Source: Flavobacterium frigidarium DSM 17623
GTDB lineage: Bacteria; Bacteroidota; Bacteroidia; Flavobacteriales; Flavobacteriaceae
NCBI RefSeq assembly: GCF_000425505.1
Contig: NZ_AUDO01000007.1
Location: 186,001-250,000 of the forward strand
Direction: 5' to 3'
Length of the DNA stretch: 64,000 bases
Below the pieces are notes generated by a model. That model was given only the letters and a program-made list of their open reading frames with translations, did not search any database and was not told the DNA's origin. Every line of letters starts with the position of its first letter. Positions within the stretch are counted from its first letter, which is position 1. Both the position numbers and the translations under genes were made by a program. This document shows, piece after piece, positions 15,058 through 49,744 of the stretch.

Positions 15058-15184
15058 TTTAATGGCACTCTTTATTGCATCAAGAAACCAACATTTTTTA
15101 CTTTTAAATACTTTCTATAATCTACTATAATACAAAAATCTTTGTTTTTAGTTGGAGCACAATATTAGGTTTTTAAAAGAAACA

Positions 15185-15257
15185 GTCGTCCTGCTGTTCA
15201 CTATATCTCTTGCATTTGCTATCGCAATTCAAGAGGATGCCGTTGCCATCAGGGCTA
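15185..15257 (-). repeat. Dispersed flavobacterial intergenic repeat, copy 1
   Basis: Read on the minus strand it runs TTAGCCCTGATGGCA...GGCATC, an internal hairpin (CTCTTG / CAAGAG arms around a non-conserved loop), then GATATAGTGAACAGCAGGAC. The same ends, with a different middle, occur in the opposite orientation at 49378-49470. This marks a repeat family with conserved ends and a variable core. Confidence 0.65.
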
Positions 15258-15806
15258 ATAAATACGATTAACTTACAAGAAATTATATATACTTTGCAAA
15301 TATTTCTTCAGGTTAAATATCCCGTATTAATAACTTTATTGTAATAAAAAAAGCATCTTTTAATAGCTAATCATACGATAAAACTAAATCGCGCTTTTAC
15401 GCATTTTGAAGAATCTCAAATCAAACTTTGACGAAGAATGCTTAACATACGTTCTCTAATGAAAGACGTCTAAATTTAACAACCCCCTAAATAAAGATAA
15501 AGCATTGTTCATTATAAAAATTGATAGAATTAATACTAATTTAATTTAATAATCAACCAATTGTAAATTATAACCATTAACTTTATTCTATAAGCAAGAT
15601 AATAAGATTATGTAGCTGGCATTTTTAATTAATCACTCTTAATTTTACTCATTCGATTTACTTTTAGTAGCCTTTCATAAGACCATTACTTTCAGTAAAA
15701 GCATATGAAATTTTAATATAGAGAAAAAGAGAACTTACACAACATTCACTATGTGATTTATCAATAGTTAATTAAGCAATCATAGAAAACACTTATACTC
15801 TAATAA

Positions 15807-25142: not shown

Positions 25143-26219
25143 TCAGTGTTCCCCGTAGCCTACATCATCCATTTTTCCGCTGAAAACTTTGTATTGGATA
25201 ATGAAATATGTGATTACTAACACAAGCGCTATTGCAAACCAATAGACGCCAACTGATAAGCCATAATCATCAGCAGCGACATTGTAGATTGTCAATGAAG
25301 GATTTACATTATTTGTAGAAGGTAAAACATTAGGAAATATAGATGCTGCCGTAGATGTAAAACCGCCTAGTAAAAACAAGCTGGAGAATAAAAACCCGGC
25401 ACCGTCATGCTGATAAGTCTTAACTTTTAATAAACCAAACATACCTGCAAAACACATCAAAGGAAAAACACATAATAACGGATTGTCTAAAAAGTTGTGA
25501 AAGGGTTCCGGTTCAATTTTGTGCCAAATTGATAATGAAATAACAACCAGTGCCATTAGTACAAAATTAAGCTTAAAAACTACCTCCCTTAACTTTGTAT
25601 TCATATCTGAATTTGTTTTATAAATAATCCAGTTAGCGCCATGAATCATCAAGGCAACTACACTTACAATTCCTAAAAACAAGGTGAACCAATCAATAAT
25701 TCCCAATTGATCAGCTTGCGGACTAAAAGTAGGATTCCATAAAGGCAAAAAGAAAAAGTGAGCCTCTTGAGTAGAAACACCATTAGTTACCATACCTAAA
25801 TTAACACCGCGAACCACATTACCTAAAGCAACACCAAAAAACAATGCTAATAGTAGACTCGCGATTCCAAATGCTTTATCCCAAACTGCCTCCCACATAG
25901 GATTATGAATTTGTCCGCGTAGTTCTAAACCAATTGCACGAAAGATAAGCAACCACAAAATCATCATAAGCGGCAAGTAGAAGCCACTAAAAGATGATGC
26001 ATACAAAGTTGGAAAAGCAAAAAACAAGACACCTCCTGCAGCGATTAGCCACACCTCATTTGCATCCCAAAACGGACCTATAGCATTTGTAATTGCTTTT
26101 TTGTCTTTTTCTGTCTTTGCAAAAAATAAGTGAATAATTCCTGCTCCAAAATCATAACCGTCTAAGATGACATAGACAGCTAAAATCCCCATTAAAACAA
26201 CATACCAAAAGAATTCCAT
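25143..26219 (-). CDS. cydB: Cytochrome bd ubiquinol oxidase subunit II
   Basis: A 358-aa multi-helix membrane protein, partner of CydA in the cytochrome bd oxidase. The family N-terminus appears as YVILDGYDFGAGIIHLF and the conserved loop as IGPFWDANEVWLIAAGGVLFFAFP, with RAIGLELRGQ after helix 3. It starts 5 bp after cydA ends, so both are one operon. I found no CydX-type small frame after it. The complex reduces oxygen with high affinity and tolerates sulfide, which fits its sulfur-gene neighbours. Confidence 0.94.
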   Translation of the reverse strand: MEFFWYVVLMGILAVYVILDGYDFGAGIIHLFFAKTEKDKKAITNAIGPFWDANEVWLIAAGGVLFFAFPTLYASSFSGFYLPLMMILWLLIFRAIGLELRGQIHNPMWEAVWDKAFGIASLLLALFFGVALGNVVRGVNLGMVTNGVSTQEAHFFFLPLWNPTFSPQADQLGIIDWFTLFLGIVSVVALMIHGANWIIYKTNSDMNTKLREVVFKLNFVLMALVVISLSIWHKIEPEPFHNFLDNPLLCVFPLMCFAGMFGLLKVKTYQHDGAGFLFSSLFLLGGFTSTAASIFPNVLPSTNNVNPSLTIYNVAADDYGLSVGVYWFAIALVLVITYFIIQYKVFSGKMDDVGYGEH

Positions 26220-36865: not shown

Positions 36866-36971
36866 GGCGTGCCCTTTATTCCACTGCGTTACACAAGGTC
36901 AGGCTATACGCTACAATCTTTTAATTTTTAAGAAAAAATAAAAAGGATTTCCACTACTATCCTTCACGCAG
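36866..36971. repeat. Dispersed flavobacterial intergenic repeat, second family, copy 1
   Basis: Left end GGCGTGCCCT, then GGTCAGGCTATACGCTA, an AT-rich stem (TCTTTT...AAAAGGAT arms) and right end ACTATCCTTCACGCAG. The layout and end sequences match the copy at 45317-45450 despite a different core. Confidence 0.65.
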
Positions 36972-37197
36972 CTTACTACTAAGAATTCAATCTCAATAAC
37001 AATACAGCTTGGTGTAATCACATGTACTACGCTACGTGTAAATCATCCATTTTGTACTTGTCGAATCTCAGTTATAGTATTAGAATCAATTGCATCCATA
37101 TATAGTTTGTCTTTCATCAAAAAAGCCTACCCCATAACTAATCAACAAATAACTTACAATCAGACACTTAAAAAATAAATCAAAAATAAATGTTAAC

Positions 37198-38401: not shown

Positions 38402-38968
38402 ATGAAAAATTTAAAAGCAATTGCATTAGCATTAGTAGTCGTTTTATCGACAGCAACAGTATCAGCACAAACAAAGAAAGTTGACGTAAAAGCAAGTACA
38501 ATCAACTGGAATGGTAAAAAAGTAACTGGAGAACACAGCGGAACTGTAAACTTAAAAGATGGTACTTTATTATTTAAAGGAACTAAATTAGTAGGTGGTA
38601 CTTTCACAGTAGACATGACGACATTGACTGCAACTGATTTAACTGGTGAATACCAAACTAAATTAAACGGACATTTAAAGTCTGAAGACTTTTTTGGAAC
38701 TGAAAAATTCCCTACTGCAATTCTTGTTTTCAAGAAAATAGGAATGTCTTCTAAAGACATGTATGCTGTAACTGCTGATTTGACTATTAAAGGAATTACT
38801 AAGCCAGTTTCTTTTAATATGGCTGTAAAAGGTGATACTGCTTCTACTAAATTTATGGTTGATAGAACTAAATATGATATCAAGTTCGGTTCAGGAAGTA
38901 TTTTTGATAATTTAGGTGACAAAGCAATCTCTGATGAGTTTGAACTAACTGTAGTTTTAAAGTTTTAA
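38402..38968 (+). CDS. YceI family periplasmic lipid/quinone-binding protein
   Basis: A 188-aa protein with a classical signal peptide (MKNLKAIALALVVVLSTATVSAQ, cleaved after residue ~23) and a YceI lipocalin-like barrel: STINWNGKKVTGEHSG, GGTFTVDMTTL, LNGHLKSEDFFG and FPTAILVFKK. The family binds isoprenoid lipids in the periplasm. The MarR-nitroreductase-YceI order suggests a response to quinone-type compounds. A terminator follows 25 bp after the stop. Confidence 0.9.
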   Translation: MKNLKAIALALVVVLSTATVSAQTKKVDVKASTINWNGKKVTGEHSGTVNLKDGTLLFKGTKLVGGTFTVDMTTLTATDLTGEYQTKLNGHLKSEDFFGTEKFPTAILVFKKIGMSSKDMYAVTADLTIKGITKPVSFNMAVKGDTASTKFMVDRTKYDIKFGSGSIFDNLGDKAISDEFELTVVLKF

Positions 38969-38993: not shown

Positions 38994-39022
38994 AAACCCA
39001 GCAAGCAATTGTTGGGTTTTTT
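38994..39022 (+). terminator. Terminator of the marR-nitroreductase-yceI operon
   Basis: AAACCCA and TGGGTTT arms, extended by CAA/TTG with a one-base bulge, form a stem followed by six T. It isolates this operon from the trp operon. Confidence 0.8.
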
Positions 39023-39085: not shown

Positions 39086-39115
39086 TTGTCATATAAATAT
39101 ATATTTCTATCTTTG
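39086..39115 (+). promoter_or_regulatory. trp operon promoter
   Basis: TTG at 39086-39088 and a perfect TATCTTTG -7 element at 39108-39115 are separated by 19 nt, a near-ideal Bacteroidota promoter. The start site is expected about 5 nt after the -7 element, i.e. at or within a base or two of 39120, the first base of the leader-peptide ATG. Confidence 0.75.
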
Positions 39116-39119
39116 ACTC

Positions 39120-39176
39120 ATGAAAACAATTACAAACAATACTTGGTGGTGGAACAATTTACGTCAAACGTCGTGA
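39120..39176 (+). CDS. trpL: trp leader peptide (18 aa, three tandem Trp codons)
   Basis: ATG...TGA encodes MKTITNNTWWWNNLRQTS. Three consecutive TGG codons at 39144-39152 act as the tryptophan sensor. A ribosome stalled there leaves the last codons (39170-39176) free for antiterminator pairing, while one that reaches the stop covers them. The promoter places the transcript start at the ATG itself, so the peptide would be translated from leaderless mRNA. It lies 121 bp upstream of trpE. The call rests on codon content and the overlapping RNA structure. Confidence 0.88.
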   Translation: MKTITNNTWWWNNLRQTS

Positions 39177-39243
39177 ACTAAGCTCCCATGGTATTTTTTG
39201 AATACAAATATAAAAGGCTTGTCATCACGACAAGCCTTTTTCT
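39170..39243 (+). promoter_or_regulatory. trp attenuator (terminator/antiterminator switch)
   Basis: The terminator is a perfect 12-bp stem (39212-39223 with 39229-39240, 5-nt loop) ending in T residues. The alternative structure pairs GTCGTGA at 39170-39176, which includes the leader stop codon, with TCACGAC at 39225-39231, and AAGC at 39180-39183 with GCTT at 39217-39220. This breaks both arms of the terminator. The geometry fits ribosome-mediated attenuation: low Trp stalls at the TGG triplet and permits readthrough. Confidence 0.82.
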
Positions 39244-39297: not shown

Positions 39298-40701
39298 TTG
39301 AAATCATTTAAATTAAATACAAAATACAAACAAATACTAGCAGACACCATTACGCCTGTGAGTATTTATTTAAAAATTCGTGATAAATTCCCTAATAGTC
39401 TTTTATTAGAGAGCAGTGATTATCATGGAGGTGACAATAGTTTCTCATACATTTGTTGTAATCCTATCGCTTCTATTAAAATAGAAAATGAAACCATTTT
39501 AAAGTCGTATCCTGATGGGACTTCTGAAAAAATGTTCATTAATGAGCATACATCTGTGCCTGAAATCATTCAAGAATTCTCTCATGAATTTACTTCTGAG
39601 AAAAATGATTTTAAATTCATCAATAATGGTTTATTTGGATACCTATCCTATGATGCTGTTCGTTATTTCGAAAAAGTAACAATCGCAAAAAAAGAAAATA
39701 GTAATACGATTCCTGATGTATATTATGCTGTTTACCAAAACATCATTGCTATCAATCACTTTAAAAATGAAGCATACTTATTTTGCCACAGCTTAGATGA
39801 AGAGACTAATAACCTTGCTGAAATTGAGCAATTATTACAATCGCGCAATATAGCTTCCTATAAATTTACAAAAGACGGTGAAGGTTTTTCAAATCTAACT
39901 GATGAGGAGTTTAAACACAATGTGGCTTTAGCCAAAAAACATTGTTTCCGTGGAGACGTTTTTCAATTGGTTTTATCACGTCGTTTCACGCAAGGATTTA
40001 AAGGTGACGAATTCAATGTGTATAGAGCATTGCGAAGCATCAATCCTTCTCCTTACCTCTTTTTCTTCGATTATGGAGATTTCAAAATTTTTGGGTCTTC
40101 GCCCGAGGCACAAATTATCGTAAAAGATCGTAAAGCCGAAATCCATCCTATTGCTGGAACTTTTAAACGTACAGGTGACGATGAGAAAGATGCTGTATTA
40201 GCAAAACAATTATCGGAAGATAAAAAAGAAAATAGCGAGCATGTCATGTTGGTAGATTTGGCTCGAAACGATTTAAGTCGCAACGGACATCATGTAAATG
40301 TAGAGCGTTATAGAGAAGTACAATTTTTTTCTCATGTTATTCACCTAGTTTCAAAAGTAACTGGACAGTTACACGAGAAAGCAACGACAATGCAAGTTGT
40401 AGCTGATACTTTTCCCGCAGGAACGTTAAGCGGAGCTCCTAAACATAGAGCAATGCAATTGATAGAAGATTACGAGAAAACAAATCGTAATTTTTATGGA
40501 GGCGCTATCGGTTTTATGGACTTCGAAGGCAATTTCAATCATGCCATTATGATTCGTACGTTCCTTAGTAAAAATCACCAACTGCATTCTCAGGCTGGTG
40601 CAGGGATTGTAGCAAGCTCTGACGAGGAAAGCGAAATGCAAGAAGTGTACAACAAGTTAAGAGCATTGAATACCGCACTGGATTTAGCTGAAACCATTTA
40701 A
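39298..40701 (+). CDS. trpE: Anthranilate synthase component I
   Basis: Converts chorismate to anthranilate with ammonia delivered by TrpG. The 467-aa protein has the N-terminal Trp-feedback region containing LLESSDYHG and the chorismate-binding C-terminal domain with LSRRFTQGF, SPSPYLFFFDYGD, GSSPEAQI, HPIAGTFKR, GTLSGAPKHRAM and SQAGAGIVASSDEESE. No ATG precedes the conserved start; translation begins at TTG (39298). Expression is controlled by the upstream attenuator. Confidence 0.95.
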   Translation: MKSFKLNTKYKQILADTITPVSIYLKIRDKFPNSLLLESSDYHGGDNSFSYICCNPIASIKIENETILKSYPDGTSEKMFINEHTSVPEIIQEFSHEFTSEKNDFKFINNGLFGYLSYDAVRYFEKVTIAKKENSNTIPDVYYAVYQNIIAINHFKNEAYLFCHSLDEETNNLAEIEQLLQSRNIASYKFTKDGEGFSNLTDEEFKHNVALAKKHCFRGDVFQLVLSRRFTQGFKGDEFNVYRALRSINPSPYLFFFDYGDFKIFGSSPEAQIIVKDRKAEIHPIAGTFKRTGDDEKDAVLAKQLSEDKKENSEHVMLVDLARNDLSRNGHHVNVERYREVQFFSHVIHLVSKVTGQLHEKATTMQVVADTFPAGTLSGAPKHRAMQLIEDYEKTNRNFYGGAIGFMDFEGNFNHAIMIRTFLSKNHQLHSQAGAGIVASSDEESEMQEVYNKLRALNTALDLAETI

Positions 40702-40795: not shown

Positions 40796-41359
40796 ATGAA
40801 AATACTAGTTATAGATAATTACGATAGTTTCACTTACAATCTAGTGCACTACTTAGAGGATTTAGATTGCGAAGTGACGGTATATAGAAACGACGAATTT
40901 GCTATTGATGATATCGCTCACTTTGACAAGATTTTACTTTCTCCAGGTCCAGGAATTCCTGAAGAAGCAGGATTGTTAAAAGCTGTTATAGAAAAGTATG
41001 GCCCTACAAAAAGTATTTTCGGGGTGTGTTTAGGTCAACAAGCCATTGGAGAAGTATATGGCGGAACACTTTCAAACCTAGATAAAGTGTATCACGGGAT
41101 TGCTACTAATGTAAAAACGGTGGTTGATGACGAACTTTTATTCGAAGGCTTAGGCAAAGAGTTTGAAGTGGGACGTTACCATTCATGGGTAGTAAACACT
41201 GATTTGCCAGATGTGCTAGAAGCCACATCATTTGATGATAATGGTCAAATAATGTCTTTACGTCATAAAACATATGATGTACGTGGCGTACAATTTCACC
41301 CTGAAAGTGTGTTGACACCCAACGGAAAAAGAATGTTAGAAAATTGGGTAAAAGCATAA
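40796..41359 (+). CDS. trpG: Anthranilate synthase component II (glutamine amidotransferase)
   Basis: A 187-aa class I amidotransferase subunit. The oxyanion loop LSPGPGIPEEAG, the nucleophile GVCLGQQAIGE (Cys near residue 79) and the catalytic HPESVLTPNG near the C-terminus are complete. It is separate from trpE and not fused to trpD. The 94-bp gap after trpE contains an AT-rich inverted array of ATTTAAAG-like heptamers. Confidence 0.95.
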   Translation: MKILVIDNYDSFTYNLVHYLEDLDCEVTVYRNDEFAIDDIAHFDKILLSPGPGIPEEAGLLKAVIEKYGPTKSIFGVCLGQQAIGEVYGGTLSNLDKVYHGIATNVKTVVDDELLFEGLGKEFEVGRYHSWVVNTDLPDVLEATSFDDNGQIMSLRHKTYDVRGVQFHPESVLTPNGKRMLENWVKA

Positions 41360-41409: not shown

Positions 41410-42405
41410 ATGAAAAACATATTAAACAGACTAATCAATCACGAAACGCTTTCAAAAGAAGAAGCAAAAAATGTATTGGTTAATATATCAAACGGAAGTT
41501 ACAATCCTAGTCAAATTTCAGCTTTCGTAACAGTTTACATGATGCGTAGTGTGAGTATTGAAGAACTTGCAGGTTTTCGCGAGGCCTTATTAGATCTGTG
41601 CATTCGAGTGGATTTATCGCAGTACAATGCTATTGATTTATGCGGTACAGGTGGAGACGGAAAAGACACTTTTAACATCTCAACTTTGGCATCGTTTATT
41701 ACCGCAGGCGCAGGTGTAAAAGTGGCAAAGCATGGGAACTACGGACTATCATCAATCTCTGGTTCAAGTAATGTGATGGAAAGTCTAGGAATCAAATTCA
41801 GTAATGATGCTGACTTCCTTGAAAAATCTATCGATCAAGCAGGAATTTGTATTTTACACGCTCCTTTGTTTCATCCTGCCATGAAAAACGTGGGGCCTAT
41901 TCGAAAAGAACTCGCCGTAAAAACATTCTTCAATATGTTAGGACCGATGGTAAATCCTTCGTTTCCAAAACATCAATTGGTTGGGGTTTTCAATTTAGAG
42001 TTGGCTCGAATGTACGCCTACTTATATCAAAACACTGATGTGAATTTCACGATTCTGCACTCGCTTGATGGCTATGATGAAATTTCATTAACAAGTCCTA
42101 CCAAAATTATTACTAGTAAAATGGAAGGAATGCTATCTCACGAGACTTTCAATTTAGATAAATTGAAGCAAAGCGAAATCGAAGGTGGAAAAACGATCGC
42201 CGAATCGGCACAAATGTTTATCGATATACTTTCAGGTAAAGGAACCGAAGCACAAAATAACGTTGTTAGCGCTAATGCTGCCATGGCAATCGCAACAGTA
42301 ACAGCTTGTACGCCATTAGAAGGTTTCGCTAAAGCCAAAGAAAGCTTACTATCAGGAAAAGGATTGAAAGCATTGACAAAATTGCAGGAGTTAAGTAAAA
42401 GTTAG
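41410..42405 (+). CDS. trpD: Anthranilate phosphoribosyltransferase
   Basis: Transfers phosphoribose from PRPP to anthranilate. The 331-aa protein carries the PRPP loop LCGTGGDGKDTFNIST (residues ~78-93), KHGNYGLSSISGSSNVME and the substrate-binding stretch containing FHPAMKNVGPIRKELAVKT as HPAMKNVGPIR. It is not fused to TrpG. The gene lies 50 bp after trpG in the operon. Confidence 0.95.
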   Translation: MKNILNRLINHETLSKEEAKNVLVNISNGSYNPSQISAFVTVYMMRSVSIEELAGFREALLDLCIRVDLSQYNAIDLCGTGGDGKDTFNISTLASFITAGAGVKVAKHGNYGLSSISGSSNVMESLGIKFSNDADFLEKSIDQAGICILHAPLFHPAMKNVGPIRKELAVKTFFNMLGPMVNPSFPKHQLVGVFNLELARMYAYLYQNTDVNFTILHSLDGYDEISLTSPTKIITSKMEGMLSHETFNLDKLKQSEIEGGKTIAESAQMFIDILSGKGTEAQNNVVSANAAMAIATVTACTPLEGFAKAKESLLSGKGLKALTKLQELSKS

Positions 42406-42493: not shown

Positions 42494-43279
42494 ATGAACA
42501 TACTCGATAAAATAATAGTTGATAAAAAACGAGAAGTCATTCTCAAAAAGAGCATTATTCCAATTTCACAATTAGAAGCTTCAGTTTTTTTCTCGAAAGA
42601 AACGATTTCTTTAAGTCAAAATTTAAAGGAAAGCAATACCGGAATTATCGCAGAACACAAACGCCGTTCTCCTTCTAAGTCGGTTATTAATCACAACTTT
42701 ACGGTTGAAGAAGTGGTCAAAGGTTATGAAAGTGCGGGTGCATGTGGAATTTCAGTTTTAACCGATGGAAAATATTTTGGTGGATCATTAGACGATTTAC
42801 TATTGGCAAGAGCCTCGGTGAATATCCCGTTATTGCGAAAAGAATTTATCGTAGACGAATACCAAATAGTAGAAGCAAAAGCACATGGTGCAGATTTAAT
42901 TTTGCTAATCGCAGCGGTACTAACGCGTGACGAAATCAGATACTTATCTGAATTTGCTAAAAGTTTAGGATTAGAAGTACTACTGGAAGTACACAATCAA
43001 GAAGAGTTGGAAAAATCGATTATGCCAACATTAGACATGATTGGTGTCAACAATAGAAACTTGAAAACCTTCGAAGTGAGTTTGGATTTTAGTAAGCAAT
43101 TAGCAGACATGATTCCGAATGATTTTGTAAAAGTTTCTGAAAGCGGTATCAGTTCGATCGAAGCCATAACCGAATTAAAACCCTACGGATACAAAGGGTT
43201 TTTAATAGGGGAAAACTTTATGAAAACCGATAATGCTGGTCAAGCAGCAACGGAATTTATAAAGCAACTAGCCCTCTAG
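42494..43279 (+). CDS. trpC: Indole-3-glycerol phosphate synthase
   Basis: A 261-aa TIM-barrel enzyme that closes the indole ring. The catalytic Glu/Lys region IIAEHKRRSPSK (residues ~51-62), LRKEFIVDEYQI and the final phosphate site VSESGISSIEAI / GFLIGENFM are present. It is monofunctional, with trpF as a separate gene. The 88-bp gap before it contains repeated CTTTAAA / TTTCAAG heptamers in inverted orientation. Confidence 0.95.
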   Translation: MNILDKIIVDKKREVILKKSIIPISQLEASVFFSKETISLSQNLKESNTGIIAEHKRRSPSKSVINHNFTVEEVVKGYESAGACGISVLTDGKYFGGSLDDLLLARASVNIPLLRKEFIVDEYQIVEAKAHGADLILLIAAVLTRDEIRYLSEFAKSLGLEVLLEVHNQEELEKSIMPTLDMIGVNNRNLKTFEVSLDFSKQLADMIPNDFVKVSESGISSIEAITELKPYGYKGFLIGENFMKTDNAGQAATEFIKQLAL

Positions 43280-43412: not shown

Positions 43413-44105
43413 ATGAACGACACAATCAAACATAACACAACGTCAGCTCTCCGCCGCGGCGGAAGGGCCGGGGTGGGGATAAAGATCTGTGGTATGAAAT
43501 ACCCCGACAACATAGTCGAGCTAGGTGCACTCCTACCCGATTATATGGGATTTATATTTTGGGAGAAATCGTCTCGCTATTTTGATGGACAAATTCCTGA
43601 ATTACCAAAATCCATAAAAAAAACAGGAGTCTTCGTCAATGAAACGGTAGAGAAAATTGTTCAAAAAGCACTTCAATACGATTTACAAGCAGTACAGTTG
43701 CACGGTAAAGAATCGGTTGCATTTTGTACTGAATTACGTAAATCATTGTTAAAGAATATCGAAATCATAAAAGTGTTTTCAATTTTGGATACCTTTGATT
43801 TTGCGGTGCTTGAACCTTTCGAATCGGTTTGTGATTACTTTTTATTTGACACCAAAGGAAAATTGCCTGGTGGCAACGGAACCACATTTGACTGGAAAGT
43901 TTTGCAACAATACCCATCTTCAAAACCCTTCTTTTTAAGTGGTGGCATAGGACTTGAAGAATTAGAAGCTGTTAACGAAATTTTAAAAACTAATTTACCT
44001 GTTCACGCCATTGACGTCAACAGCAAATTTGAAATAGAACCTGGATTAAAAAACATAACATTATGTAACAATGCGATTCATCACGTCGCCACAATTAAAC
44101 AATAA
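43413..44105 (+). CDS. trpF: Phosphoribosylanthranilate isomerase with altered N-terminus
   Basis: A TIM-barrel isomerase (230 aa as annotated). The core starts at IKICGMKYPDNI with the catalytic Cys, continues through GFIFWEKSSRY and VGVFVN-like KTGVFVN, and ends with LSGGIGLEE and DVNSKFEIEPGLK. The first ~20 residues (MNDTIKHNTTSALRRGGRAG) do not belong to the family. They are encoded partly by a GC-rich palindromic insert at 43445-43478. Translation may start at the ATG 43413 or at GTG 43473, which would give a normal-length protein. Confidence 0.9.
   Translation: MNDTIKHNTTSALRRGGRAGVGIKICGMKYPDNIVELGALLPDYMGFIFWEKSSRYFDGQIPELPKSIKKTGVFVNETVEKIVQKALQYDLQAVQLHGKESVAFCTELRKSLLKNIEIIKVFSILDTFDFAVLEPFESVCDYFLFDTKGKLPGGNGTTFDWKVLQQYPSSKPFFLSGGIGLEELEAVNEILKTNLPVHAIDVNSKFEIEPGLKNITLCNNAIHHVATIKQ
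43445..43478. repeat. GC-rich palindromic insert at the 5' end of trpF
   Basis: A G+C-rich block centred on the perfect 12-bp palindrome CCGCCGCGGCGG (43451-43462) and followed by GGGCCGGGGTGGGG stands out sharply from the AT-rich operon. It resembles a REP-type element and encodes most of the non-family N-terminus of TrpF. Confidence 0.65.
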
Positions 44106-44109
44106 AAAG

Positions 44110-45291
44110 ATGTCATACAACGTAAACGAAAAAGGCTATTATGGCGAATTTGGAGGTGCCTACATTCCTGAAATGTTATATCCAAATGTAGAGGAATTGC
44201 GTCAAAATTATTTAAAAATTACAGCCGAACCAGAATTTCAAGCTGAATTTGATGCGTTACTTAAAGATTATGTAGGTCGCCCTACTCCATTGTATTTTGC
44301 AGAGCGTTTGTCTGCGATGTACAATACTAAAGTGTATTTAAAAAGAGAAGATCTGTGTCATACGGGTGCGCACAAGGTTAACAACACTATTGGCCAAATC
44401 TTATTAGCCAAGAGACTGGGTAAAAAGCGCATCATCGCTGAAACTGGAGCGGGACAACACGGTGTGGCGACGGCTACCGTATGTGCCTTGATGGGGATGG
44501 AATGTATCGTATACATGGGAGAAATTGACATCAAGCGTCAAGCGCCAAATGTGGCTCGTATGAAAATGCTAGGCGCTGAGGTACGTCCTGCTCTTTCGGG
44601 TTCAAAAACTTTGAAAGATGCTACAAACGAGGCCATTCGTGACTGGATTAACAACCCGGTAGATACCTATTATATTATTGGTTCTGTAGTGGGACCACAT
44701 CCATATCCTGATATGGTGGCACGTTTTCAATCGGTTATTTCAAAGGAAATAAAGTCACAATTACTTGAAAAAGAAGGACGTGAAAATCCTGATTACGTGA
44801 TTGCTTGTGTAGGTGGTGGTTCTAATGCAGCTGGTGCTTACTATCACTTCTTAGATGAAGAAGACGTAAATATAATTGCTGTAGAAGCGGCAGGATTAGG
44901 AGTACATTCTGGCGAAAGCGCCGCAACTTCAGCTCTGGGGAAAGTAGGTGTTATTCACGGAAGTAAAACGCTATTGATGCAAACTAATGACGGACAAATT
45001 ACTGAACCATACTCAATCTCAGCTGGACTAGACTATCCAGGTGTGGGTCCTATACACGCACATTTATTTGCTTCAAAACGTGCACAATTTATTTCGATTA
45101 CAGATGTTCAAGCAATGGATTGGGGATTAAAATTGTCAAAATTAGAAGGTTTGATTCCAGCAATAGAGAGTGCACATGCTTTTGCCGTTTTAGACGAAAT
45201 GAAATTCAAAGAAGACGATATTGTGGTAATCAATTTATCTGGACGTGGCGATAAAGATTTGAGTACTTACATTGATTATTTCAAATTGTAG
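44110..45291 (+). CDS. trpB: Tryptophan synthase beta chain
   Basis: A 393-aa PLP enzyme that joins indole and serine. The PLP lysine lies in THKVNNTIGQ as HKVNNTIGQ (~residue 85), followed by AETGAGQHGVATA and the phosphate-cradle CVGGGSNAAGAYY. The longest frame begins 13 codons upstream inside trpF, but the ATG at 44110 gives the usual start MSYNVNEKGYYGEFGG and lies 4 bp after the trpF stop. TrpA is not adjacent: a small gene and a repeat intervene. Confidence 0.96.
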   Translation: MSYNVNEKGYYGEFGGAYIPEMLYPNVEELRQNYLKITAEPEFQAEFDALLKDYVGRPTPLYFAERLSAMYNTKVYLKREDLCHTGAHKVNNTIGQILLAKRLGKKRIIAETGAGQHGVATATVCALMGMECIVYMGEIDIKRQAPNVARMKMLGAEVRPALSGSKTLKDATNEAIRDWINNPVDTYYIIGSVVGPHPYPDMVARFQSVISKEIKSQLLEKEGRENPDYVIACVGGGSNAAGAYYHFLDEEDVNIIAVEAAGLGVHSGESAATSALGKVGVIHGSKTLLMQTNDGQITEPYSISAGLDYPGVGPIHAHLFASKRAQFISITDVQAMDWGLKLSKLEGLIPAIESAHAFAVLDEMKFKEDDIVVINLSGRGDKDLSTYIDYFKL

Positions 45292-45501: not shown

Positions 45502-45822
45502 ATGGAAAAATTATTTGCTTACGGATCGTTAAAAGAAAAAGAAGTTCAGGAAACTGTTTTTGGAAGATTTTTAGAAGGAACTTCTGAAACATTGAGAGGA
45601 TATGAAGTAAAAGAAATCAAGATCGAAGAGGAATTTGGTATGGAAACCTATCCTATTATCGCTCCTACTGAAAACACAAATGATATTATCGAAGGGATGG
45701 TTTATGATCTTTCAGTTCATGAGTTAGAACTCGCAGATACTTACGAAGGAAAACAGTATAAGAGAATTGAAGTTCGTTTACAATCAAATGAAGTAGCATG
45801 GGCATTTAGTGCCAAAACGTAA
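45502..45822 (+). CDS. Gamma-glutamylcyclotransferase-like (AIG2-type) protein inside the trp operon
   Basis: A 106-aa protein with the AIG2/GGCT fold signature LFAYGSLKEKEVQ at residues 4-16 and a catalytic-type Glu in ADTYEGKQYKR near residue 81. Enzymes of this fold cyclise gamma-glutamyl amides. It lies between trpB and trpA on the same strand and is likely cotranscribed, although it has no known role in Trp synthesis. It may act on gamma-glutamyl amines or be a passenger gene. Confidence 0.78.
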   Translation: MEKLFAYGSLKEKEVQETVFGRFLEGTSETLRGYEVKEIKIEEEFGMETYPIIAPTENTNDIIEGMVYDLSVHELELADTYEGKQYKRIEVRLQSNEVAWAFSAKT

Positions 45823-45866: not shown

Positions 45867-46628
45867 ATGAATAGAATAAAACAAAAACTGCAAGAAGATA
45901 AAAAGATATTCTCTGTTTATTTCTCTGCCGGATACCCTAGTTTGAATGATACGGTTCAAATTATGCAAGACCTGGAAAAAAATGGTGTAGACATGATCGA
46001 AATTGGTTTGCCGTTTAGCGATCCTCTTGCTGATGGTCCTACAATTCAAGCAAGTTCTACCCAAGCGCTGCATAACGGAATGACTACACAAGTGTTATTC
46101 GATCAATTAAAAGAGGTTAGAAAAACAGTTTCTATCCCCTTAGTGATAATGGGTTATTTTAATCCCATGCTACAATACGGAATCGAAAATTTCTGTAAAA
46201 AATGCCAAGAGGTAGGTGTTGATGGATTAATTATTCCGGATCTTCCTGTTGATGTTTACGCTGATGAATACAAAGCTATTTTCGAAAAATATGGTTTGAT
46301 AAATGTATTCTTGATAACACCACAAACATCTGATGAGCGCATTCACTTTATTGATAGTGTTTCTGATGGGTTTATCTATATGGTGAGTTCGGCAAGTGTG
46401 ACTGGATCTCAATCTGGTTTTGGAAGCACGCAAGAAGATTATTTCAAGCGTATTGCCAGCATGAATTTGAAAAACCCACAAGTAATTGGTTTCGGAATCA
46501 ATAATGCGGAAACTTTTAATCAAGCAACGAAATTTGCAAAAGGTGCAATTATTGGTAGCGCATTTATTCAGCATCTTACTGAAAATGGTACTGGAAAGAT
46601 TGCTGATTTTGCTAAAGCAATTAGATAG
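45867..46628 (+). CDS. trpA: Tryptophan synthase alpha chain
   Basis: A 253-aa TIM barrel that cleaves indole-3-glycerol phosphate. The catalytic Glu and Asp occur in MIEIGLPFSDPLADGPTIQ as IEIGLPFSDPLADGP (~46-60), followed by MGYFNPMLQYG, GLIIPDLPV and GFGINNAET. It is complete and is the last gene of the operon, followed at 25 bp by a strong terminator. Confidence 0.95.
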   Translation: MNRIKQKLQEDKKIFSVYFSAGYPSLNDTVQIMQDLEKNGVDMIEIGLPFSDPLADGPTIQASSTQALHNGMTTQVLFDQLKEVRKTVSIPLVIMGYFNPMLQYGIENFCKKCQEVGVDGLIIPDLPVDVYADEYKAIFEKYGLINVFLITPQTSDERIHFIDSVSDGFIYMVSSASVTGSQSGFGSTQEDYFKRIASMNLKNPQVIGFGINNAETFNQATKFAKGAIIGSAFIQHLTENGTGKIADFAKAIR

Positions 46629-49350: not shown

Positions 49351-49377
49351 GATCTTTTAAGAACAAAACATTGTTAA

Positions 49378-49470
49378 TAGCCCTGATGGCAGTGGCATCT
49401 CGTCATTTAGAAAAACAAGGCACTTTTGCCGTAGTTTTACTTAATGAGGAATATAACGAACAGCAGGACC
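49378..49470 (+). repeat. Dispersed flavobacterial intergenic repeat, copy 2
   Basis: Starts TAGCCCTGATGGCAGTGGCATC, has a variable core, and ends ATATAACGAACAGCAGGACC. The two ends are the same as in the copy at 15185-15257 read on the opposite strand. Confidence 0.68.
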
Positions 49471-49744
49471 TTACATTAATTAAAAAATCAAATTGTTCTG
49501 CTCCTTAAAAAACAACTATTATACTTTATTTATGCCATTGCAATCTATGAATTTGTTAGACAGCAAAGTAGACGTGTGGAAGAATCACCCCTATCTATAA
49601 AATATGATAGCTTGTAGCGTAAATATCCCTAATCGTCTAATTACTTTTTATATCATTTGACATAATTGTATCTTTAACCAAATAAGCAAAATATTTATTT
49701 TGTAAAATAGTATTCCATTTATCATTCATAATATTCAGACTTCA

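Follow-up and report, generated by a model that had tools for sequence, protein, structure and literature searches.

A Bacteroid-trp attenuator before the trp genes of Flavobacterium frigidarium, very likely transcribed without a 5′ leader

The trp locus and its leader region

The sequence analyzed here, referred to throughout as the window, is a 64,000-nt stretch of Flavobacterium frigidarium DSM 17623 (GCF_000425505.1, contig NZ_AUDO01000007.1, positions 186,001-250,000 of the forward strand). It carries trpE, G, D, C, F, B and A, all assigned by Pfam and all lying 3′ of a compact leader region, upstream of which a Pfam scan identifies a YceI-like gene. The features of the region are as follows.

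38994-39019, + strand: intrinsic terminator 3′ of the YceI-like gene (38402-38968), expected to limit read-through into the trp leader
39086-39088, + strand: −33 element TTG, 19 nt before the −7 box (read from the sequence)
39108-39115, + strand: −7 element TATCTTTG, of the sigma-A type TAnnTTTG, followed by ACTC and ATG (read from the sequence)
39120, + strand: predicted transcription start, on the A of the leader ATG (based on box spacing, the initiator register and the context of the start codon)
39120-39176, + strand: leader peptide ORF MKTITNNTWWWNNLRQTS, 18 aa, including the stop codon at 39174-39176 (read from the sequence)
39138-39195, + strand: leader hairpin, holding the Trp codons against 39186-39195 and enclosing the antiterminator strand (fold, −12.9 kcal/mol)
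39144-39152, + strand: three Trp codons, the sensor (read from the sequence)
39170-39183, + strand: antiterminator 5′ strand GTCGTGA...AAGC, overlapping the leader stop codon (folding, pairing conservation)
39212-39240, + strand: intrinsic terminator with a 12-bp stem, the 5-nt loop ATCAC and a T-rich tail (terminator scan, pairing conservation)
39217-39231, + strand: antiterminator 3′ strand, overlapping the terminator 5′ arm, its loop and the start of its 3′ arm (folding, pairing conservation)
39298-40701, + strand: trpE (Pfam PF04715 and PF00425; TTG start as listed)
40796-41359, + strand: trpG (Pfam)
41410-42405, + strand: trpD (Pfam)
42494-43279, + strand: trpC (Pfam)
43413-44105, + strand: trpF (Pfam)
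44071-45291, + strand: trpB ORF (Pfam)
45502-45822, + strand: ORF listed without a gene name, between trpB and trpA
45867-46628, + strand: trpA (Pfam)

An initial annotation of this DNA had described the promoter (TTG, 19 nt, TATCTTTG), an 18-aa leader with three consecutive Trp codons, the 12-bp terminator and two competing pairings, and each of these is found where it was placed. The pairings are exact: GTCGTGA (39170-39176) is the full complement of TCACGAC (39225-39231), and AAGC (39180-39183) that of GCTT (39217-39220). The segment 39120-39250 folds with a z-score of −5.3, and none of 200 shuffles was equally stable. A sigma-70 style promoter scan was set aside, as such scans do not suit the promoters of Bacteroidota. 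As read, trpE starts with TTG at 39298 and likewise in six relatives (L063, L075, L015, L088, L109 and L247), and with ATG in L071 and L002. The window also holds three matches to the Flavo-1 RNA family (RF01705), at 36893-36977 (−), 15183-15260 (−) and 49375-49474 (+).

Competing structures and their conservation

The leader matches the full model (1-131) of the Rfam family Bacteroid-trp, RF01692, with 77.1 bits at 39100-39223 (gathering score 49); the attenuator as such is already catalogued under this name. RF01692 is a described Bacteroidetes family (Bacteroid-trp; PMC2864571), and the idea of attenuation has been restated for trp in Flavobacterium psychrophilum (PMC6414381). Within the genus, 97 of 150 genomes have a match; for the family the figure is 208 of 299, and for the phylum at large 42 of 395. 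We read 202 family matches, 115 from the same genus and 87 from other genera; the latter comprise 21 from the phylum-wide sample and 66 from the family-level sample, which are the higher-scoring part of the matches of the 208 matching genomes. In 194 of 201 homologues trpE is the next gene on the same strand, and in the other seven that gene reads as trpB (L102, L115, L117, L124, L129) or trpD (L134, L135), one of each having been Pfam-scanned.

The loss of Trp codons in relatives, which by the initial annotation would have spoken against the attenuator, was not seen: 201 of the 202 matches have at least two Trp codons side by side, and the exception, L123, is linked to lysC. Pairing conservation, the check proposed there for both structures, was counted over 193 distinct leaders, with duplicates and the trpB-linked L102, L115, L117 and L124 left out. 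For the terminator, 2262 of 2294 cells are paired (65% and 50% after a one-column slide; 32 double-change cells), and for the antiterminator core 1264 of 1344 (4% and 35% after the slide; four double-change cells). The second antiterminator segment is less well kept (750 of 965 cells). Within the leader hairpin, the outer stem pairs in 910 of 1140 cells and the middle stem in 608 of 695, and the inner pairs are 85% paired over the same leader set. Distant members such as L130 and L131 have quite different strands that are yet complementary; the per-leader antiterminator test was a lax one, accepting any helix of at least 5. Antiterminator and terminator are mutually exclusive and both are conserved, as established by sequence, covariation and folding together. 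Moreover, leaders of 16 or 15 aa (e.g. L077, L152) keep GTCGTGA or TCGTGA beyond their stop codon, which argues that the RNA itself is under selection.

Folds in which a ribosome was masked support the ribosome-mediated attenuation that had been proposed, as do the RF01692 match and the conserved pairings. For RNA to 39231, a ribosome on the Trp codons gives an antiterminator probability of 0.98, one at the stop codon gives a terminator probability of 0.97, and RNA without a ribosome already reaches 0.73 for the antiterminator. In this model, a ribosome on the Trp codons would free the antiterminator strand, and one at the stop codon would block it. The terminator is the more stable structure (−16.5 vs −13.0 kcal/mol) and prevails in masked folds of the full-length RNA despite a stalled ribosome; the decision must therefore be kinetic and fall during transcription.

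The proposed cycle would run as follows. RNA polymerase would start at the A of the leader ATG and, given that start, the ribosome must load on a 5′-terminal AUG. With ample charged tRNA-Trp, the ribosome would reach the stop codon inside GTCGTGA and cover the antiterminator strand, upon which the terminator at 39212-39240 would form. When tryptophan is short, it would stall on the three Trp codons and the leader hairpin would open; 39170-39183 would then pair with 39217-39231, and transcription would continue into trpE. The same conserved RNA could conceivably be switched otherwise than by stalling on Trp codons, for instance by an RNA-binding protein or by tryptophan itself. The Rfam entry says only that this is a peptide leader RNA, and a functional test of Bacteroid-trp was not found in the literature searched, so far as the sources consulted extend. 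Such a switch is nevertheless highly improbable given the Trp codon pairs or triplets kept in all but one of the 202 matches, the stop codon that lies inside the antiterminator in most leaders inspected, and the copies before lysC, described below, that carry Lys codons at the sensor place.

Promoter spacing and the predicted transcription start

In F. psychrophilum the promoter element TAnnTTTG lies at −12 to −5 (PMC9723704), and in F. johnsoniae 4-5 nt separate the box from the transcription start (PMC6847099). This published spacing places +1 of the trp transcript on the A of the leader ATG, as the initial annotation had proposed, and the distribution of gaps in homologues, the initiator register and the start context lend that position further support. 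Taking as start codon the ATG nearest to the ATG position of the covariance model, the gap between box and start codon among 201 leaders is 4 nt in 20, 5 nt in 17, 6-11 nt in 17, 12-24 nt in 135 and more than 24 nt in three, with nine lacking a perfect box and hence a gap value. An alternative rule (shortest ATG ORF, fewer loci) gave larger gaps for some of the leaders that have two ATGs. None of the 201 homologous leaders has a gap of 0-3 nt. A lower limit at exactly 4 nt is what one would predict if start codons can lie as close as the transcription start itself but never 5′ of it.

The spacing that puts +1 on the start codon is conserved in relatives: 17 leaders of the genus, the window's and 16 others, have a gap of 4 nt, none has 5 or 6, and the same 4-nt gap is found in the nearest relatives, L063, L075 and L247. 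Flavobacterium sp. 14A, F. frigoris and F. kayseriense are among the relatives with this gap, whereas the sister leader L015 is leadered. L164 has a gap of 4 by the rule but a second box at 18, and was left out of the leaderless group for the tree, context and initiator analyses. In 28 of 35 distinct promoters with gaps of 4 or 5, TTTG or TTG occupies the −33 place. Most sampled Flavobacterium trp leaders, 90 of 114, have gaps of 12-24 nt and are leadered, so the leaderless form is not needed for the switch.

The initiator register is shared between the two forms. Among leadered relatives (n = 135), the nucleotides after the box include C at the fourth position in 80 and A at the fifth in 94. 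In gap-4 leaders the fifth nucleotide coincides with the start codon's first position, where 18 of 19 have A and the remaining one G; a pyrimidine directly precedes the ATG in 14 of these 19, though not in all. In gap-5 leaders the fifth nucleotide is an A directly before the ATG in 13 of 17, which suggests that these transcripts may carry one extra nucleotide. The start context differs: the A fraction over the last four bases before the start codon is 0.65 in leadered vs 0.29 in gap-4/5 leaders, and an A at −3 is present in 87 of 135 vs 8 of 36. Bacteroidota mRNAs are reported to lack Shine-Dalgarno sequences, and in F. johnsoniae an A at −3 favours initiation (PMC6847099). TAHHTTTG has a frequency of 5.9e-4 per base and strand across the window, at which chance would put such a box 4-5 nt upstream of any one ATG in about 0.1% of cases. 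The window contains two further box-ATG pairs with such a gap (at 25556 and 2205 on the minus strand), and its long ORFs have a box within 80 nt in 7 of 50 and at 4-5 nt in none.

These data bear directly on whether the same attenuator might have an ordinary short 5′ leader. In that case the 4-nt gap would be incidental, and the transcript would begin further 5′, driven either by the imperfect box TATATTTC (39100-39107) or by a promoter that another sigma factor recognizes. Most relatives in the genus are leadered, a box matching at 5 of 6 positions does lie 12 nt before the ATG, and the leaderless start is predicted from sequence comparison. Yet a nearly invariant G of F. johnsoniae boxes (PMC6847099) is missing from TATATTTC, and that box is not kept in the close relative L075. 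The perfect box, by contrast, lies at exactly 4 nt in the 17 genus leaders, and the gap-4 promoters combine the initiator register of leadered ones with the absence of their A-rich start context. We therefore regard a short leader as unlikely. The trp mRNA very likely begins on the A of the leader ATG, at 39120, and would thus be leaderless.

The pattern TAHHTTTG-(4 or 5 nt)-ATG-21 nt-TGGTGGTGG was searched across 84,980 species, each represented by a single genome, giving at least 116 stretches. Among the 116 matches listed, 107 have trpE downstream, and 106 of those are filed as Bacteroidota; the trpE-linked matches listed include 99 Flavobacteriia (60 Flavobacteriaceae, 34 Weeksellaceae) and five Chitinophagaceae. 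Among the matches listed without trpE, three (L217, L277 and L311) end before the downstream gene, two (L245 and L249) precede an apparent trpB and trpD, as read, and four (L233, L251, L256 and L270) look like chance. The predicted leaderless layout recurs in many Flavobacteriia. Eight of 11 leaderless trp leaders of other genera that were tested, Chryseobacterium included, fall below the RF01692 threshold. The leaders of Chryseobacterium and Epilithonimonas (L205, L207, L235 and similar) are of leaderless type, with a peptide ending SNSSSGL... and another terminator sequence, below that threshold.

A His leader peptide, MFTNTVHHHHFHYCSQAMC, precedes hisG in the F. frigidarium genome (L137, contig C2 near 122000). 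His leaders were compared in 31 of 42 genomes with hisG (L137, L321-L350), and all 31 are leadered, with gaps of 18-39 nt; eight of these genomes have a leaderless trp leader. The leaderless start thus belongs to the trp leader and is no general feature of the strain or of attenuators, and the notion that attenuators of the genus are generally leaderless was ruled out. A search for runs of Ile, Leu or Val codons gave no leader at the ilvD locus of this genome. Before an 833-aa aspartokinase fusion (thrA-like) on contig C8 of the same genome (L394), a Thr-rich leader ORF, MINNSTTYQSSITTQIWVGTAMTFTFSTTTTTP, begins 9 nt after a −7 box; it may represent a threonine attenuator, not a leaderless one but with a 5′ leader that is very short.

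The distribution of the two states was mapped onto a FastTree tree of the N-terminal part of TrpE (258 rows, 235 with a leader state). At least 13 changes between leaderless and leadered are required over all branches, eight at support of at least 90 and four at 95 or above; within the genus the corresponding numbers are nine, six and two. For 166 loci not chosen by gap, shuffled labels needed at least 29 changes vs the 13 observed. The leaderless trait appears to be inherited in clades and yet gained or lost repeatedly, and the tree does not tell which.

Lys-coded copies and comparison with known systems

A pattern of the antiterminator-terminator core matched in 78 of 150 genomes of the genus, and of 30 places inspected, 28 have TGGTGG just upstream. 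The two without it (L369 and L379), like L123, precede an aspartokinase gene (PF00696 for L123); L123 scores 46.2 bits with RF01692, just under the threshold. A second pattern, two Lys codons plus the scaffold end with at most three mismatches and the downstream gene left unspecified, was found in 13 of 398 genus genomes (L381-L393), vs two for a backward control; the genome of the window gave no match to it. The protein 3′ of the Lys-coded leader begins MKVLKFGGTS (lysC) in 13 of 13, and an 18-aa leader, e.g. MFISIIKKGKKQYLRPTS, with two to four or more Lys codons is likewise readable in all 13. The terminators keep GTC, the loop ATCAC (11) or TTCAC (2), and GAC. Their gap of 18-22 nt marks the lysC leaders as leadered, with four having a second, upstream ATG at a gap of 10. 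None of 10 lysC loci tested reached the Rfam thresholds, and our literature search yielded no recognizable description of a Lys-coded trp scaffold before lysC. These data suggest that the same RNA chassis has been re-aimed at lysine by a change of sensor codons.

Overall, we put at roughly 0.83 the probability that the trp genes of the window are controlled by a ribosome-mediated attenuator of the Bacteroid-trp type whose transcript lacks a 5′ leader; its exact start site, its response to tryptophan and the mode of ribosome loading are what we infer. We also lean, with less assurance, towards a broader view in which RF01692 is one setting of a modular chassis. Its 5′ end would toggle between leaderless and leaders of about 8-20 nt with the switch retained, and in part of Flavobacterium Lys codons (KKGKK) would have replaced the Trp codons (WWW) of the sensor for control of lysC, with peptide length, stop position and the antiterminator and terminator cores kept; leaderless loading would be tied to the first nucleotides of the RNA. 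Attenuation depends on the timely arrival of the first ribosome, and sister species that have either a leaderless or a leadered form of an otherwise unchanged switch offer a natural experiment on how ribosome loading sets attenuation. The lysC copies, in turn, indicate that one RNA chassis may be re-aimed through its sensor codons.

Our literature search, mostly at the level of titles and abstracts and with thin coverage of subscription papers, recognized no leaderless trp attenuator in Bacteroidota. The closest known system is Bacteroid-trp itself, which the leader resembles in covariance score, phylum, downstream genes and leader peptide, and whose description is silent on the transcription start in the parts consulted (PMC2864571). 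The RF01692 model includes the promoter stretch and mixes leaderless and leadered members. In the trpL attenuator of E. coli, the position of the ribosome on the Trp codons picks antiterminator or terminator, as proposed here; unlike the present case, the trpL message carries a Shine-Dalgarno sequence within a 5′ leader, and its peptide has two Trp codons. The E. coli attenuator is catalogued as Rfam RF00513 (PMC4046766).

Leaderless Trp leaders have been published from two other lineages. In Sinorhizobium meliloti, the trpL transcript (rnTrpL) begins with the ATG of the leader ORF and attenuation precedes trpE(G), as here; it differs in its 14-aa leader, its alphaproteobacterial host, and a released RNA and peptide that act in trans (PMC7298713). 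The TrpL1 peptide of Streptomyces lividans is closer in layout, with 18 aa, WWW at codons 9-11, a leaderless start, a terminator and trpE downstream (PMC8079986), but it belongs to an unrelated phylum and has another promoter type, and the likeness to the Flavobacterium leader looks convergent. Leaderless transcripts make up 17% in S. lividans (PMC8079986) vs 5.5% of mapped mRNAs in F. psychrophilum (PMC9723704), where they are a minority mode of initiation but not a foreign one. The expectation of the initial annotation that such a switch would be unusual in Bacteroidota is not supported, since the family is a described one, leaderless Trp leaders are published elsewhere, and the layout is found in many Flavobacteriia. 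With leaderless Trp leaders already described in Streptomyces and Sinorhizobium, the F. frigidarium leader represents a variant of a known switch, and not a new mechanism.
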